From an uncultured Prevotellaceae bacterium (lineage in GTDB: Bacteria > Bacteroidota > Bacteroidia > Bacteroidales > Bacteroidaceae): 43,172 nucleotides of DNA. Of the stretch, positions 2,277-8,838 are shown piece by piece. Each line of letters begins with the position of its first letter. The first letter of the stretch is position 1. The translations under genes and the position numbers were made by a program. The notes below the pieces were generated by a model that had not been told where the DNA came from, made no database searches, and worked only from the letters and a program-made list of their open reading frames with translations. Location of the stretch: NCBI GenBank assembly GCA_900316445.1, contig ONCZ01000017.1, forward strand, positions 1 to 43,172. Reading direction: 5' to 3'.

Positions 2277-3899
2277 TTAATAGTTCGCCCTCATCCACTC
2301 GATGATCCTGAGGAAAAAGGTAAGAGCCGATACCTCATGGTTGGTGACACCGAGTTCCTTTGTCGTTTCGGAGCTGTACTCACCGACAAACTCCTCCGTC
2401 TTGATACCCTTGTCCTTGAGGAACTTGCTCATGGCATAGAAGTTCTCCACAGGCACGACATCGTCTTTCGTATCGTGGAAGAGCATCACGTCGAAGTCTT
2501 TGCGGGGTGTCCAGCCACTGGTGAGCGCATCCGCGCTGAAGGCCTCCTTGAATCGGCGCGACAGGGTACTGTTGGTATTGAGGACGGCATCTGTGCAGAT
2601 GTCGCTCGTCTTTTTGGTCTTGATAAGCTCCTCGTCGAGGGCTCTGCGCTTGTTCTGCTTGCTGAGGAACCACTCGTCGAAGTTCTTGGCCACGGGATCC
2701 TTCAGATAGTCGTGGATGTCGTAACCCAGACGGCAGAAGTGATTGTAGGCATAGAGCACGTTGCAGACGGTGCTGGGCATCTCGGTGTAACCCTGGGTGA
2801 TGGCATCGTACATCGAGTTGATGTCATAGGGACCGTCGCCGGCGAAGGCACGCTTTACCTTGATCTCCGGATGGCGCTCTGAGATCTCGCGCAGCACGGC
2901 CATCGTGGTCTGCCCGCCCTCCGAATAGCCTGCGATGACGAAGTCGTTGCCTTTCTTCACCTGCAGGTCTTCTATCAACCGCTTGGCAGCGAGGTAGGCA
3001 TCGAGCGAGGCGCGCCCGTTGGCCCGTGAGATACAGTAGGCCTGCGGCTCTTTCTCCGTGATACCGAAGCCGTAGTAGTCGGGGGCTACAACGATGAAGT
3101 CGGTGAGAGAAGCCCCGGTAGGAAACTCCACGGCTCCGCGTGATGGCGCCTGCGTGGTGGCATAGATCGTAAAGTGGTTGTAGAGCAGAATGCCGTTGAA
3201 GGGCTTGTCTTCCTCAATCAGCTTTTTATTGACTGTGATGGTACCACTGAGCGTGCAGGGATTGCCGAAGGGGTCGACCGAAGGATAGTTGAACACATAG
3301 TTCATGTGGTTGGGGAAAAGCAGCACGGGGATGCTGTCGGTAACGCAGGCCCGAGGGAGTGTCGACTTCGCCATCCAGTCCTGAATCAAACCGTTCGTAC
3401 CACTTTTGCCTTTGGTAAGCGAACCTTTATGTGATGCATTGCTGAAGGTGACATTCCCCGACGTATAATTCATCTCTATCTGACTGATATCGACAAAGCT
3501 GCCGTTATTCCCTTTACCGCGTGTACGGGAAGGCATCATGGACGTGCCCGTATTCGGGTCAGTCAGGATGATACGCCCTTCGGGTGTCACCTGCCATGTG
3601 AACGGTGCATCTTTCGGACCGCCGTAAATCTCGAGCGGTTCGTTGAATTCGTCATCAAACACAGCCAGCGCGACGTAGCCCGTGTGGTCGGCTTTGGTCT
3701 CCACTACTATCAAGGCGCGGTTGAACGGCTTGCCGTTCTCAGTCACGTCAGCATACTCAAACTCTTCCCACCACAGACCGACAAGGCTCTGTTCCAGGTC
3801 ACTCGTGACGGGAGTGGATGGATTGTCCACAGCCGTGCAGCCAGTAAGGCCCAACAGGACCACTGCAGCTGCAAACATTGCAAGAAATTTCTGTTTCAT
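2277..3899 (-). CDS. Secreted lipoprotein with lipocalin-like domain and alpha/beta-hydrolase (lipase/esterase-like) domain
   Basis: A 540-aa protein with lipobox LTGC (Cys about 21). Residues about 35-170 look like a beta-rich lipocalin-like domain (GLWWEEFEYADV). The rest is an alpha/beta hydrolase. The nucleophile elbow GYSEGG carries Ser326, acidic candidates are Asp479/Asp480 in HDTKDDVVP, and His521 lies in TNHEV, so a catalytic triad is present. The C-terminal half resembles secretory lipase/prolyl-oligopeptidase-like hydrolases of Bacteroidetes; the substrate cannot be told from sequence. It is transcribed from a promoter in a 97-bp repeat just upstream and may run on into the SpoIIE gene 40 bp downstream, since that gap has no clear -7 box. 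Confidence 0.8.
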   Translation of the reverse strand: MKQKFLAMFAAAVVLLGLTGCTAVDNPSTPVTSDLEQSLVGLWWEEFEYADVTENGKPFNRALIVVETKADHTGYVALAVFDDEFNEPLEIYGGPKDAPFTWQVTPEGRIILTDPNTGTSMMPSRTRGKGNNGSFVDISQIEMNYTSGNVTFSNASHKGSLTKGKSGTNGLIQDWMAKSTLPRACVTDSIPVLLFPNHMNYVFNYPSVDPFGNPCTLSGTITVNKKLIEEDKPFNGILLYNHFTIYATTQAPSRGAVEFPTGASLTDFIVVAPDYYGFGITEKEPQAYCISRANGRASLDAYLAAKRLIEDLQVKKGNDFVIAGYSEGGQTTMAVLREISERHPEIKVKRAFAGDGPYDINSMYDAITQGYTEMPSTVCNVLYAYNHFCRLGYDIHDYLKDPVAKNFDEWFLSKQNKRRALDEELIKTKKTSDICTDAVLNTNSTLSRRFKEAFSADALTSGWTPRKDFDVMLFHDTKDDVVPVENFYAMSKFLKDKGIKTEEFVGEYSSETTKELGVTNHEVSALTFFLRIIEWMRANY

Positions 3900-3927
3900 T
3901 GTTTTATATTATATTTGTTTTTAATTG

Positions 3928-4024
3928 TTTGCAAAGATAAGCATAATTTTCCAAGCCACCAAACTTAAAAGCCTCAAATATCAACTCTTTGCTTATTTTG
4001 AAACAATTTTTGCATATTTTGCAA
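3928..4024 (-). repeat. 97-bp promoter-bearing intergenic repeat, copy 1
   Basis: This 97-bp stretch matches 14212-14308 base for base in length with about 11 mismatches (about 89% identity, counted by eye). On the minus strand it ends in the -7 box TATCTTTGC (3939-3931), placed to drive the hydrolase lipoprotein gene. The second copy is placed in the same way ahead of an unrelated gene. Confidence 0.85.
3931..3939 (-). promoter_or_regulatory. -7 box TATCTTTGC for the hydrolase lipoprotein gene
   Basis: A Bacteroidetes -7 consensus on the minus strand, 31 bp ahead of the start codon at 3899, inside the 97-bp repeat. Confidence 0.7.
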
Positions 4025-4047
4025 GTCGGGTGTTTGAATTATTTCAA

Positions 4048-6132
4048 CTATTCTAGGATCTCTACACAATACTTCTGACAGGCGTTGGTTTTGTGGGGGA
4101 CATATCCCAGATGATTCAGGGCCTTGCCGACATCCCTATTGATGTTCTTGGTCAGATGGAAATTGGGGAACGACTTGTTCAGTATCTCCACAATTTCATC
4201 AACACTTTTCAGTTTCGACTTGTCGTTGCCGTCGGCAGGTCGGAATGTCAGGCTGATCATCTTCTCGATGCTGCCCACACGTTCAAACTTGCGGTTCTCC
4301 TCAATGATGCGCAGGTTCTCGTCTTCATCAAACCAGTAGTGGTCGCCTCTGGCAATCTCTGCCACGAGCTGGGCGTAGAGCTGCGGATAGTCAATCGGCG
4401 TGAGGGTGTCGATCTGGTTTTCGACGACGATGCAGACGAAACGGCGCGAACCGCTCTTGTCGTCTGGCAACGGCCGGAGATTGTTCGTCGTAGCGATGAA
4501 CGAGGCATAGCGTCGGCGCTGCTCGTAGGCCTTGCCGTAAGGCGGACGCATCTTCACGTCGCTCTTCGAGATGAGATGCTTCAAAAGCGGCTGCTGACTC
4601 TTCGACAGCATGTCGAACTCGTCGACGTTGATCAGCGCGAACGAGGTCAGTCCCAGGTTGATGGCAGTCTCGTTCTTGAAGTCGATCTTGTCATTATAGT
4701 AGTCGCGCAGTTCTTCCGGCAGCAGGATGCCGCAGAAGGTTGTCTTGCCGCATCCCTGCGGACCGATGAGCATCGGCACGATGGCATTGCCGTGGTTGCG
4801 GTCGATGCCCTTCCAGTGGGCCACCATCGAGAGCAGCCACTTGTGGAAGTCGCCCGTCCAATGCTCGTTTTTGGTCTTGATGCGTTCGGCCAGAGGGGTT
4901 ACTCTATCGCGTCCGTCCCACTTCGGCAGCTGTTCCAGCCACTCGTTCACAGGGTCGTACTCAGGTGTCATCGTCGACTCGACATAGCGCTTGATGTCCT
5001 TATCCCACGAGTCGAGACCGGCTTTCAGCGCACGGATCGACATCGTGTTCATCGCCTCCTTCGTCAGGTCGCTGAAACGGTAGTCGAAGGAGTCCTTCGA
5101 ACGGTACTGGGCGACGCCCGTCATCACGTTCTTCCGCAGTTCGTAGCGCGAGTTGAGGAAGGCCTCGGTCTTGTAGGTCAGCAGCTGCGAGGGTTTTACG
5201 TGTTTCAGCGGCCAGGTGGCCTTCAACGTCTTGGAATACTGCGAGTCGAACACCGTCTGCACATACTCCGCATCCTCGTTCAGCCGTCCGTCGAAGAGGG
5301 TCATCTTCACGGCGAAGGCCTCCTCGATGCCGCTCTCGTGGCAGTTCTGGGCGAGCACCTCTAAGCAATGCGCCACAAAGTCCTCTTCCTTGTCCAAGCG
5401 GCACTCCTCCAAGGCATCGGCCTTGCAGGCCTGATACTCATGGCGGCGGCTGGCCTCGATGGAGAGTCCCGGGATTACTCCCTCCTGGCTCCCGACTCCT
5501 GACTCCTGTCTCCTCTCATGACTCACCGTCCTCGACAGCCGTTCTGCCGTCTGGTCATCAGGCGACACCATCATGATGGCGCAGTCGGGATTGAAATATA
5601 CATCCTCGTCGTGGCTCATCTCACAGCTGGTGCGGAGCGACGGGGCGATGTTCTCTACGCGGATGGCCAACTGTGTAGAGTAGAGATAGTGGAACTTCGC
5701 GTAGGCGTTCAGATTGAATTTCTCCACTTCCGACTGCCAGTAGCCCTCGGGATTCTGCCAGTTGTTGCGCTCGGCAGCCTGACAGACGAGCTTGACGCTC
5801 CGTCCGTCGGCCCCCACGAAGGCCAGCAGGGTGTAGTCGATGAGTGCCGCCTCATTGCGTATCTCCTCTGCCGTCTTGCGGTCAGGCAGGTTGTTGATCT
5901 CTAAGAGGATCATACCATTATATAAATAGGTCCACCGCTTGCCTTTCTCGTTCTTGATGGCCGATGCGAAGCAGATGCGGGGCCGCTCGGTCTGTTCTTC
6001 AATGAGTTTTCCGCTTTTCAGCTTACCCTTGCGAATCATCTCCACCACATCGCCGAGTGAATACCGCGTGTAGCGCTCCTGTCCGTCGCGCAGGTTGATC
6101 AATGTCACAGTCTGTCTGGTTATCTCTGTCAT
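4048..6132 (-). CDS. VapE/VirE-family primase-helicase (BT4734-like N-terminal domain, AAA+/SF3-like ATPase)
   Basis: A 694-aa protein. The N-terminal part (about 1-130) looks like the region preceding BT4734-like domains, and about 130-210 like a primase-related BT4734 domain. From about 360 on it is a VirE/VapE ATPase: Walker A GPQGCGKTTF (Lys463), Walker B ALINVDEFD, sensor IATTNN and an arginine motif SGSRRF. The last 70 residues resemble the small DUF3874-type winged domain found on such proteins. Family members act in replication of phages, satellites and integrated elements. An AGTCAGGAGTC repeat (5481-5515) adds the non-conserved residues SGVGSQEG. No integrase, HU or relaxase gene lies nearby. 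The gene sits beside an iteron-rich region, which suggests a replicon remnant. Confidence 0.8.
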   Translation of the reverse strand: MTEITRQTVTLINLRDGQERYTRYSLGDVVEMIRKGKLKSGKLIEEQTERPRICFASAIKNEKGKRWTYLYNGMILLEINNLPDRKTAEEIRNEAALIDYTLLAFVGADGRSVKLVCQAAERNNWQNPEGYWQSEVEKFNLNAYAKFHYLYSTQLAIRVENIAPSLRTSCEMSHDEDVYFNPDCAIMMVSPDDQTAERLSRTVSHERRQESGVGSQEGVIPGLSIEASRRHEYQACKADALEECRLDKEEDFVAHCLEVLAQNCHESGIEEAFAVKMTLFDGRLNEDAEYVQTVFDSQYSKTLKATWPLKHVKPSQLLTYKTEAFLNSRYELRKNVMTGVAQYRSKDSFDYRFSDLTKEAMNTMSIRALKAGLDSWDKDIKRYVESTMTPEYDPVNEWLEQLPKWDGRDRVTPLAERIKTKNEHWTGDFHKWLLSMVAHWKGIDRNHGNAIVPMLIGPQGCGKTTFCGILLPEELRDYYNDKIDFKNETAINLGLTSFALINVDEFDMLSKSQQPLLKHLISKSDVKMRPPYGKAYEQRRRYASFIATTNNLRPLPDDKSGSRRFVCIVVENQIDTLTPIDYPQLYAQLVAEIARGDHYWFDEDENLRIIEENRKFERVGSIEKMISLTFRPADGNDKSKLKSVDEIVEILNKSFPNFHLTKNINRDVGKALNHLGYVPHKTNACQKYCVEILE
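5481..5515 (-). repeat. In-frame AGGAGTC tandem repeat inside the vapE-like gene
   Basis: On the minus strand the units read GGAGACAGGAGTCAGGAGTC and on, giving residues such as QESGVGSQEG. The same unit occurs at 20461-20495 near the end of tatA, where it encodes a similar SQESG string. It preserves the reading frame in both genes. Confidence 0.75.
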
Positions 6133-6157
6133 AATCGTATTATTAATTTGCGTGCAA

Positions 6158-6212
6158 TGCTGCGATTAAGCGAGTGCCATGATGCTCGCATCGATGGCCG
6201 AGCGTGAGCAGC
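6158..6212 (+). repeat. Interspersed palindromic repeat (CTGCGATTAAGCGAG type) in the leader of the vapE-like gene
   Basis: About 55 bp beginning TGCTGCGATTAAGCGAG and ending GCCGAGCGTGAGCAG. It aligns, with a few short gaps, to the reverse complement of 42354-42413 inside the glycosyltransferase gene. It has internal dyads (GATGCTCGCATCGA). Here it lies between the promoter and the start codon. Confidence 0.75.
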
Positions 6213-6229
6213 ATCGCGGCTTTCAAGCC

Positions 6230-6238
6230 GCAAAGTTA
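6230..6238 (-). promoter_or_regulatory. -7 box TAACTTTGC for the vapE-like gene
   Basis: Minus-strand -7 box about 98 bp ahead of the start codon, with TTTG 20 bp upstream as a -33 candidate. The leader then carries a GCGGCTTGAAAGCCGC hairpin and the palindromic repeat at 6158-6212. Confidence 0.6.
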
Positions 6239-6414
6239 CAACATTTTTAGTCAATTGCCAAATATTTCCATAACTTTTTCATTATTTTACTTCCACTTCC
6301 ACTATTATTATCAATCTATATCTGTTTAAAGGATTTTCCAAAGGTGGAAGTAAATATTTTTACTTCCATCTAACTTCCATTTTTGATGTGACTGCGGTCT
6401 TTGACTTTACAGGC

Positions 6415-6487
6415 ACTAAAGTCCGACTTTAGTTAGGGTAAACTAGGACTTTACCCTAACTAAACCTTCAAATTCTCGAGAGAATTT
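6415..6487. repeat. Three consecutive perfect inverted repeats
   Basis: First, ACTAAAGTC/GACTTTAGT (6415-6433, 1-nt spacer). Second, TTTAGTTAGGGTAAA/TTTACCCTAACTAAA (6428-6464, 15-bp arms, 7-nt spacer). Third, AAATTCTC/GAGAATTT (6470-6487, 2-nt spacer). The first two overlap, so the DNA can fold in alternative ways. None has a strong U-tract, so they are not typical terminators. Confidence 0.8.
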
Positions 6488-6591
6488 TGCGGTTTGCTGC
6501 CTGGTTTCTCTGACTTCCATGCCACCTTTCTCCGACTTTACTGCCTGCAAACTTCCACGATGATGCCTACTTGCTCTCGTTCTGATGCTTT

Positions 6592-6626
6592 GTACAACTC
6601 GTACAGCCGTCTTGTACGACTTGTAC
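6592..6626. repeat. Symmetrical GTAC dyad
   Basis: Four GTAC motifs start at 6592, 6601, 6614 and 6623 (spacing 9, 13, 9). The arms GTACAACTCGTACA and TTGTACGACTTGTAC are reverse complements with one mismatch. It looks like a protein-binding site with two half-sites per arm. Confidence 0.65.
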
Positions 6627-6876
6627 TGATGCTTAGTTCGCTGGTAAACAAGGCATTAGCATGACTCTTACTTGGCCTATCTACACCTTGTAGAAGGTAT
6701 ATCCAACACTATTAGTAGGCGTCCCTACCACCCCAAAAAATGGGAGAGAAGTGGAAGTGAATTATTTTACTTCCACTTATGGAAATGCCTTTATATAAAT
6801 CAATTCCGATAGATTTAGTGGAAGTGGAAGTAATCCAACATATTTTTAATCAAATTTCAGACCAAAGTCATAAGAA

Positions 6877-7029
6877 ATGTTTGAGGATATTTCCGATGAT
6901 ACTCAGCCATACACTATGGAAGAACTGAACGCTCGTATCGATGAGGCAGAGGTGGAAATTGAGAATGGTGGTGGCAAGTCCTTCAAGGAAATGATGGATG
7001 GCTTCAAGCAAGAATTATTATTCAGATAG
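6877..7029 (+). CDS. Small antitoxin-like protein (orphan)
   Basis: A 50-aa ORF, MFEDISDDTQPYTMEELN onward, with YTMEELNARIDEAE followed by NGGGKSFKEMMDGFKQEL. The (Y)TMEELNARIDxAE pattern and the GKSFxEM block are what I recall from short Bacteroidetes antitoxins paired with RelE/ParE-type toxins. The start is the only ATG upstream of the conserved part. The reading frame immediately downstream keeps only the end of a toxin, so this is either a surviving orphan antitoxin or part of a dead module. It lies at the edge of the iteron region, as addiction modules often do in plasmid-like elements. Confidence 0.6.
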   Translation: MFEDISDDTQPYTMEELNARIDEAEVEIENGGGKSFKEMMDGFKQELLFR

Positions 7030-7102
7030 TTTTGATACTGTACATATTGCGGATATATGGGATACAAGACGTGAACCCAATTCTCTCGCAAAAATAATCT
7101 AA
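7013..7102 (+). pseudogene. C-terminal remnant of a RelE/ParE-type toxin
   Basis: In the frame +1 relative to the antitoxin the sequence reads NYYSDSFDTVHIADIWDTRR and continues EPNSLAKII before a stop. The pattern V-x-I-x-x-[IL]-W-D-x-R-x-x-P is the usual end of a RelE/ParE-fold toxin of about 95-100 residues. Only about 29 codons remain and they overlap the end of the antitoxin ORF, so roughly the first two thirds of the toxin have been deleted. Confidence 0.5.
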
Positions 7103-7200
7103 CCAAATCACAAACTGATATTTCTCTCGTTTCTTAACAAATAGCCCCACTGCCCTTGGAAAAAGCAGTGAGGCTAAGATAATGGATTACTTGTCTGTTC

Positions 7201-8838
7201 TTATGACTTGAAGACCTCTTCACCGTCAACGATGGTGGCGATGAGATTGGCCTGGGCGACCTTTTCGATGTCGTCGTGCAGGAAGTCGCAGTCGAATACC
7301 GTCATGTTAGCGATCTTGCCGAACTCGATGGAACCCATGCGATGCTCCTGATGGAACTGCCGGGCCACGTTGATGGTCATGGCGCGCAGCGACTGCTCAC
7401 GGGTGATGGCTTCCTTGAGGTTGCGCGGAGAGGTTGCGCCGCCAGTCACTTCCTTTGGATAGTCGCGCTTCTCAGCCGTATAAATGCTGAGTTTGATATC
7501 CATCATCGGTGAAACGGGATAGTCGGAGTGGAACACCACGTTGGCACCCGCATCATAGAACGACTTGATGGGATAAGCCTCGTCTGCCAGCTGCTGACCC
7601 ACATAAGCGACTTCCTGTTCATAAATGGGAGAACCCTTACATGTCCACAGTGGCGGAACAGCAGGAACGGAACCGGTCTCTGCCATGCGGCGGACATCCT
7701 CGTCGGTGACGAAGTGCAGATGTGCCAGCACGTTGCGCTGTTCCTTGTCGCCTGTGATCTTCTCGGCATCCTCGATACATCCCAGCATGTAGTGGGTGGC
7801 ACCGCCGCCCTCGGAGTGGACGTGTACGGACATGCCTTCCTTGTCGGCTTCAACGATCAGCTCCACCATCTTGTCGTGGTCGTTGAAGCGCTCTGCGCCG
7901 TGATAGCCGGGCTGATCGAGGTAGTCCTGATTCTGCCAGCCCGTATGTGCCTCCGTCACACCGTCGAGGAAAGCCTTGGGGCCGATGATATGGAAATACT
8001 CACCGCTCATCTCCGCACGCTCTGCGGCAATGCGGGCTATCTCAGCCTTGGGGTCGGCAATATTGTCAGTCACATACATATAGGCGTAGGTGCGCAGTTT
8101 CAGCCTGCCTTCCTCCTCCAGCTCATGGTAGGCCTTGGGAGCATTCTTGTTGACAACCTCCACGCCGGCATCACCGACGGCAGTAAAGCCGCTGCTGAGG
8201 GCCATATCCTGCCAGGCGAGCAGATATTCCTTGATATCCTCTACGGTAGCGGGGAGCTTCGGAACGATCTCGAATACGGGGCCTTCACAGATGTAGCCGT
8301 CGGGTTCACCGTTCTGATCTACATGTACGAGGTCGTAGCCCCATTTCTTAGCATAGGCCGCATCGATGCCGGCCCATTCCAGTGCCTTGGTGTTGAGCAG
8401 CATGGAATGTCCGCCAGCCGTCTGCATGAGCAGTGGCTTGTCGGAGCAGATCTCGTCGAGATAGGCCTTGCTGACATATTCCTCATTTTCCACCCATCCT
8501 GCGGCTACATAGAAACCACGCTGCGGGTTCTTCGCAATGAATGCCTTGATGATGTTACGATATCTTGCATAGTCGGTGGTCAGCCCTCCCTCCATCAGGT
8601 TCGCCTGTCCGATGGCGCGGTAACCGGCCAAGTGGCCGTGACAATGGGACTCCATAAAGCCCGGATAGATGAAGTTGTCACCATAGTCCAGCACCTGTGC
8701 ATCGGCACTGGCAAGTTTCTTCACTTCCTCTGCGCTGCCGATATATACAAACACGCCGTCCTTCACCAATGCAGCCTTGGCAAAGGGCCGCTTCTCATCC
8801 ATCGTGATGATGTTGCCGAAAATAATCGTCTGTTTCAT
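7201..8838 (-). CDS. YtcJ-like amidohydrolase (Amidohydrolase_3 family)
   Basis: A 545-aa metal-dependent hydrolase without a signal peptide. The N-terminal beta-sandwich part contains GNIITMD. The metal motif SHCHGHL (His65, His67) follows, with later conserved features such as VHVHSEGGGATHY, LAHLHFV and FHSDYPVSP. The end (ATIVDGEEV) completes the sandwich. YtcJ relatives hydrolyse amide or ester bonds in small molecules; the substrate is not predictable. It follows the M15 peptidase gene by 29 bp and shares its promoter at about 9661-9669. Confidence 0.85.
   Translation of the reverse strand: MKQTIIFGNIITMDEKRPFAKAALVKDGVFVYIGSAEEVKKLASADAQVLDYGDNFIYPGFMESHCHGHLAGYRAIGQANLMEGGLTTDYARYRNIIKAFIAKNPQRGFYVAAGWVENEEYVSKAYLDEICSDKPLLMQTAGGHSMLLNTKALEWAGIDAAYAKKWGYDLVHVDQNGEPDGYICEGPVFEIVPKLPATVEDIKEYLLAWQDMALSSGFTAVGDAGVEVVNKNAPKAYHELEEEGRLKLRTYAYMYVTDNIADPKAEIARIAAERAEMSGEYFHIIGPKAFLDGVTEAHTGWQNQDYLDQPGYHGAERFNDHDKMVELIVEADKEGMSVHVHSEGGGATHYMLGCIEDAEKITGDKEQRNVLAHLHFVTDEDVRRMAETGSVPAVPPLWTCKGSPIYEQEVAYVGQQLADEAYPIKSFYDAGANVVFHSDYPVSPMMDIKLSIYTAEKRDYPKEVTGGATSPRNLKEAITREQSLRAMTINVARQFHQEHRMGSIEFGKIANMTVFDCDFLHDDIEKVAQANLIATIVDGEEVFKS

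Follow-up and report, generated by a model that had tools for sequence, protein, structure and literature searches.

In the rep-ori regions of the phage-inducible chromosomal islands (PICI) and Staphylococcus aureus pathogenicity islands (SaPI), as described in excerpts of PMC6092414, a VapE/Rep-type helicase is encoded beside two sets of short iterons which flank a central region. The locus considered here lies in a 43,172-bp stretch of DNA from an uncultured Prevotellaceae bacterium (contig ONCZ01000017.1, hereafter the window), in which a lone vapE-like gene adjoins a gene-free block containing many copies of ACTTCCA/TGGAAGT. An initial annotation made from the sequence alone had proposed this block as the possible origin of an unrecognised replicon. 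The repeat array was confirmed at 6287-6833 and is more ordered than first described, its layout recurs upstream of related genes, and the array part also occurs alone, without vapE, which is the surprising part of the finding. Genomes, contigs and loci are designated below by our G, C and L numbers.

The mirrored array and its vapE-like gene

Eleven exact copies of ACTTCCA/TGGAAGT are found inside 543 bp, from 6289 to 6831 (starts at 6289, 6295, 6345, 6362, 6373, 6513, 6551, 6752, 6769, 6819 and 6825), as the initial annotation had counted, and 6133-7200 contains no open reading frame (ORF) of at least 80 amino acids (aa). Its statement that the density exceeds chance also held, the whole window having 17 copies on either strand against a mean of 5.5 and a maximum of 10 in 100 dinucleotide shuffles. 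Nine of the 11 copies belong to an ordered layout, those at 6513 and 6551 falling outside it. The layout consists of two mirrored arms, a 98-nt pair with 72% complementarity. In the left arm two tandem boxes 6 bp apart are followed 50 bp further on by an inverted box and finally by two boxes 11 bp apart; the right arm is the mirror image. The tenth layout box, innermost in the right arm, is degenerate, and the arm pattern matches this arm with 2 mismatches. Perfect inverted repeats were recovered as annotated, among them a 15-bp pair (6428-6442/6450-6464). The block moreover shows a 22-bp periodicity absent from the initial annotation, chiefly between the arms (lag-22 self-match 0.367 vs 0.266 for the mean of lags). 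Outside the arms the A+T content is 0.74 in 28 arms of vapE-plus-array modules and 0.73 in 35 arms of arrays without the gene (solos). No exact DnaA box TTATNCACA was present in 13 arrays, one-mismatch sites occurring in 2 of the 13.

A scan of species genomes gave, besides the window, 13 loci with 68-99% protein identity, all titled Prevotella or Prevotellaceae and five naming ruminant stomach. The initial annotation had made its proposal depend on the recurrence of the repeat spacing beside related genes and on the relatives not all occupying one locus. The window and each of the 13 relatives have 8-10 of the ten layout boxes, placed in two mirrored arms upstream of vapE, with the seventh base varying (TGGAAGT or TGGAAGA); one box of L124, missed by a later scan that started too far in, is visible in the earlier array comparison. 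As to location, L115, whose protein is 99% identical to that of the window, has the same right neighbour and a different left one, and no similarity to the window flanks beyond gene and array was found in L038, L040, L041, L042 and L043. L039 and L040 have flanks in common, and a left flank common to L126 and L127 was noted by eye. The array itself can be aligned in only some pairs of close relatives. The empty site spanning the window copy, for which the annotation had suggested a search, was not found: the flanking genes exist in many genomes in shuffled order, and in G136 the gene that comes after the left neighbour of the window vapE corresponds to window 14436. By eye, the vapE module of two different genomes (L116 and L120) lies directly after a 5S rRNA-like sequence, to the left of vapE.

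The window protein belongs to the BT4734/VapE family by its domain scores (PF08800, 92.9 bits with a cut-off of 22.4; PF05272, 104.7 bits with a cut-off of 25). The Walker residues of its helicase domain are intact, G457, G460, G462, K463, D504 and E505 being conserved in 44-45 of 45 sequences. It matches staphylococcal VapE/PriRep1 (7pds) by sequence and, among the structural matches listed, by structure, the full-length prediction being poor (mean predicted local distance difference test score, pLDDT, 45.8). Only helicase/primase families were returned by a PHROGs search, and NCBIfam gave no match. Fourteen matches to the protein were found in its own genome and relatives at E 0.001 or better in 106 of 150 genus genomes searched; lone BT4734-family genes also occur in Bacteroides and Parabacteroides records. 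The coordinates of the features are collected in Table 1.

Table 1. The vapE-like gene and the adjoining block, in positions of the window
Feature	Coordinates	Strand	Basis
vapE-like gene, 694 aa: BT4734-like N-terminal domain 50-180, VapE-like helicase domain 399-615, C-terminal winged helix ~621-694	4048..6132	-	PF08800, PF05272, PF19263; residue and structure comparison
73-bp stretch between vapE start and rest of block, absent in L039/L040	6149..6221		alignment
A/T-rich tract outside left arm	6262..6286		corresponding place A/T-rich in modules and solos
Left arm: boxes 6289, 6295 (tandem), 6345 (inverted), 6362, 6373	6287..6384	+	box search, inverted-repeat search, layout comparison
Central region, degenerate units in 22-bp-periodic array	6385..6735		self-match by lag
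Right arm, inverted left-arm copy: boxes 6752, 6769, 6819, 6825; ~6741 degenerate	6736..6833	-	box and layout comparison
A/T-rich tract outside right arm	6834..6860		A+T content

The 73-bp stretch is probably an inserted dispersed repeat, because it is missing from L039/L040 and a similar stretch stands upstream of an unrelated gene elsewhere (window 6138-6238 resembles such DNA in G095, L096). The five proteins neighbouring the window vapE were assigned by Pfam to a SpoIIE phosphatase, a secretory lipase, an amidohydrolase, an M15 peptidase and an AraC regulator. The annotation had seen no integrase, HU or structural gene: an integrase or phage structural protein was likewise not found among these five proteins and PF00589 not on the window contig, HU not having been searched for. 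Beyond the block, a short ORF (6877-7029, about 50 aa), of which L115 has a longer version, is followed by an apparent RelE-like toxin gene tail; the whole stretch, 6877-7102, is putatively of the toxin-antitoxin type.

Arrays without vapE and other box lineages

When 398 genus genomes were searched with a TGGAAG pattern modelled on the inner portion of a single arm, 59 matches were obtained in 16 genomes, and the reversed control gave 1. Examination of 53 of these matches (six of G393 were left out) resolved 36 loci. Ten of these have an adjoining vapE relative, 23 lack one within the stretch read, and three are cut by a contig end (L185, L197, L145). Both arms were recognised by exact boxes in about 10 of the 23 solos, the remainder having one arm or a decayed second one. 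Where vapE adjoins the array it always lies outside the two arms. Five genomes contain both module and solos (loci with vapE/without: G393 1/4, plus one cut; G255 1/5; G396 1/5, plus one cut; G315 1/1; G032 1/1). Solos and resident module agree in the first box base in G393, in G032 and, with the exception of one box, in G396; in G255 and G315 this base is mixed in both. The window's own genome has no TGGAAG solo within 3 mismatches of the arm pattern.

A second box, AACGTCA, was present in 5 of 230 genomes searched (control 0). In the window's own genome one such array adjoins a vapE paralogue (C85) and, within the stretches read, four two-arm solos (C78, C80, C83, C120) lack vapE, as do four loci with a single arm in G136, G173, G007 and G110. 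A solo may have arisen from a module by loss of vapE, may be a non-autonomous copy or may serve as a functional secondary site.

For one solo (L186, G393:C49) nine orthologous loci were aligned (L205-L213). Both flanks are held by five of them, none with an array: the flanking genes abut in G213 (L209, identity 74-82%), and in L206, L207, L208 and L212 a distance of 755-1237 bp separates them, an interval that contains an open frame of 210-243 aa and lacks a TGGAAG-type array. In G142 (L205) a decayed array remains beside the left gene. The comparison supports gain or loss of the array and offers an array-free counterpart, not a clean insertion junction, because the genes at this spot differ and the sequence identity is low. 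On C83 of the window's own genome a stretch of about 4 kb (L229:1254-5211), ending just after a solo array, is absent from G136, where the flanks are 96-98% identical. It was rejected as a clean empty site, since the array stands at the edge of the missing stretch. Direct repeats of 8 bp accompany two AACGTCA solos at comparable distances (47/44 and 48/53 bp), and 9-bp A/T-rich matches accompany two TGGAAG solos at unequal ones (2/42 and 2/71); all of these may have arisen by chance.

The integrase family PF00589 was not found on G000:C82, G136:C174, G136:C159, G051:C64, G032:C57 or G142:C63, several of these contigs being short and serine integrases not having been searched for; the seventh close-module contig, G129:C68, has a match about 35 kb from the module. 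A terminal-repeat transposon including vapE was rejected, as the arms do not enclose the gene; moreover, 7 copies and 6 more share no common left terminus. No close vapE relative was confirmed by the scan of viral contigs. With alignment A2, 13 distant relatives were obtained from viral contigs, and the upstream DNA was examined for two of them.

Among more distant homologues of the genus, 53 upstream regions were compared after shorter duplicates and regions under 300 bp had been dropped. In 26 of them the commonest 6-mer exceeded all 100 shuffles, with some 6-mers belonging to the core instead of a box and a few loci being near-duplicates. The boxes vary from lineage to lineage, for example AACGTCA (L053), ATGACAT (L054), CCGACAT (L073) and GCCTACA (L067), and mirrored halves and 11-bp steps recur across arrays with different boxes. 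With hand-chosen seeds, 26 of 28 box consensuses contain CA followed by C or T. A lag-22 signal (z > 2.5) was detected in 22 of 48 vapE upstream regions vs 1 of 204 control windows; these controls had been drawn at random and were for the most part coding, not intergenic. By eye, repeats of about 22 bp were also seen upstream of a BT4734-family gene in single records of Bacteroides finegoldii and Parabacteroides distasonis. Among short VapE types, the four that were compared (L005-L008) have no enriched upstream repeat. At L054 (own genome, C78:132586-132942) a Y1_Tnp-family gene adjoins the array of the vapE paralogue. Contig C1 of G024 contains five similar vapE copies (L055-L059), two of which have a PF00589 match within 5 kb; four lie inside larger repeated loci, and no element boundaries were obtained.

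Proposed function and competing explanations

As read from the sequences, the layout is conserved, array and vapE are paired, the array is dispersed without vapE, and the box variants of solos and module agree in three genomes. We favour, with moderate confidence, the view that the array is a bipartite iteron origin private to the helicase encoded beside it, which would act as initiator much as in phage satellites, and that this origin also spreads by itself. The origin proposed by the initial annotation gains support from the conserved layout and the array/vapE pairing; its alternative of a minimal element or a remnant is borne out in part, the window locus being one of a family of vapE-plus-array modules and not an isolated remnant. 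Binding, loading, replication, ancestry and the transposition or other movement of solos are what we infer. VapE, a helicase of the hexameric AAA/SF3 type with a C-terminal winged helix, would bind the boxes of the mirrored arms and load there. That it reads the boxes is suggested because array and gene are paired and box variants match within genomes. Owing to the mirrored arrangement, two helicases would point in opposite directions, and the flanking A/T tracts or the core could melt or organise the DNA. The unit, whose probable ancestor is the rep-ori segment of a phage satellite or a comparable element, would now be chromosomal, without an integrase; its array part may spread alone as a non-autonomous element, which a resident VapE could serve in trans. 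It is tempting to extend this to integrase-free mobile elements of Bacteroidales having a VapE-type initiator as their sole protein and lineage box codes, in which the origin is the spreading unit and scattered origins are fired in trans by one resident VapE, an extension that we regard as possible and rather unlikely.

Several observations weigh against the initiator-origin reading. Active primases of the same fold as VapE have a D-x-D motif; priming by the window protein is doubtful because E-x-N stands in its place. In 7 of the 16 genomes with TGGAAG arrays no vapE stands beside any array read, and in 27 of the 53 upstream regions no 6-mer exceeded all shuffles. L043, a 67-68% relative from another search, retains 6 of the ten layout boxes. 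L042, L121, L124 and L125 have arms without a clear 22-bp signal (z -0.9 to 2.0), and the 22-bp core is therefore not essential to the layout. A search for one protein domain holding the box specificity showed box distances to follow protein distances only weakly (rank Mantel r 0.26-0.32, 25 loci), a correlation that disappeared when the TGGAAG clade was reduced to one member (rho -0.05 to 0.16, 18 loci); the boxes were partly hand-picked, and L049, L062 and L069 were omitted despite having a consensus. Finally, a consistent target duplication that would account for solo insertion could not be recognised in 12 solos (8 TGGAAG, 4 AACGTCA).

The solos, with mirrored arms of about 100 bp, a length of about 400-580 bp in G393 and a position between unrelated ordinary genes, resemble miniature inverted-repeat transposable elements (MITEs). 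Such elements might be moved by some transposase, with the boxes as transposase sites and vapE adjoining some copies, but this is unlikely given that the gene adjoins 10 of the 36 TGGAAG loci, always outside the arms, that arrays with other boxes adjoin other vapE genes, and that the same 12 solos show no consistent target duplication. The position of arrays directly upstream of vapE and of solos between genes would also fit operators, through which VapE or another regulator controls vapE and, via the solos, the neighbouring genes. For an operator, however, a pair of mirrored arms bordered by A/T tracts would be an elaborate design, and ten solo-neighbour proteins, including a histidine phosphatase, a PRK/uridine kinase family protein, GH5, GH9 and GH3 enzymes and one protein without a match, have no evident common function, which makes this account distinctly unlikely.

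A domesticated defence device, in which a decoy or suicide origin hinders phage replication and phages drive box diversity, would account for lone vapE genes occurring several per genome with different boxes. Excerpts of PMC7145576 describe phage satellites with their own initiator and iterons that restrict phages. None of 24 viral contigs matching the half-arm pattern had two arms or a vapE relative, a comparison that covers the TGGAAG box only, and we hold a defence device to be quite improbable. A structured RNA in the central region, finally, is suggested by core segments of the window and L040, which gave more stable folds than shuffles did (z -2.8 to -7.8 in five folds). The core of L054 does not (z -0.6), 3800-7300 contains no Rfam family at cut-off (best E 0.61), and palindromic repeats fold on either strand; the RNA is accordingly very improbable. 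The initiator helicase with a bipartite origin is retained as the best reading.

Comparison with known systems

In the open-licence PubMed Central (PMC) literature, among the matches listed, no title concerned VapE-linked or dispersed arrays in Bacteroidales and no work the function of lone BT4734/VapE genes; PMC5771137 gave no match for 22-bp repeats or VapE. The pairing of VapE genes with private mirrored iteron arrays makes their function testable. If one VapE acts on scattered arrays, chromosomes would carry conditional secondary origins, which would bear on gene amplification, satellite evolution and the origin as a selfish unit; origins fired in trans would then be selfish or regulated extra origins of the chromosome.

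Iteron plasmids likewise have repeated short boxes beside an initiator gene, but differ in setting, which is chromosomal here, in the helicase type of the initiator, and in the absence of an exact TTATNCACA from the 13 arrays. As to phage P4, with its alpha protein, ori and crr, no P4-like gene was found among the five window neighbours scanned. With MITEs the arrays share shortness, dispersal and mirrored arms, which are inverted and two in number in about 10 of 23 TGGAAG solos and four AACGTCA solos, as well as the presence, in several of the genomes concerned, of a relative that bears a gene; unlike that of an autonomous element, the gene lies outside the arms, not between the same ends, and is not a transposase.

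The PICI/SaPI rep-ori remains the closest counterpart in having a helicase and two iteron sets around a centre, together with the match of the protein to staphylococcal PriRep1 (7pds). In contrast to it, the window-type array is located upstream of the gene, not downstream; its arms mirror each other at constant spacing and have A/T tracts on their outer sides, and the core often shows a 22-bp periodicity. PICI have an integrase with attachment sites; PF00589 was not found on 6 of 7 contigs of close modules, several of them short. A satellite-type initiator with bipartite iterons was already known, and it is the occurrence of such arrays without their gene that sets the present system apart.
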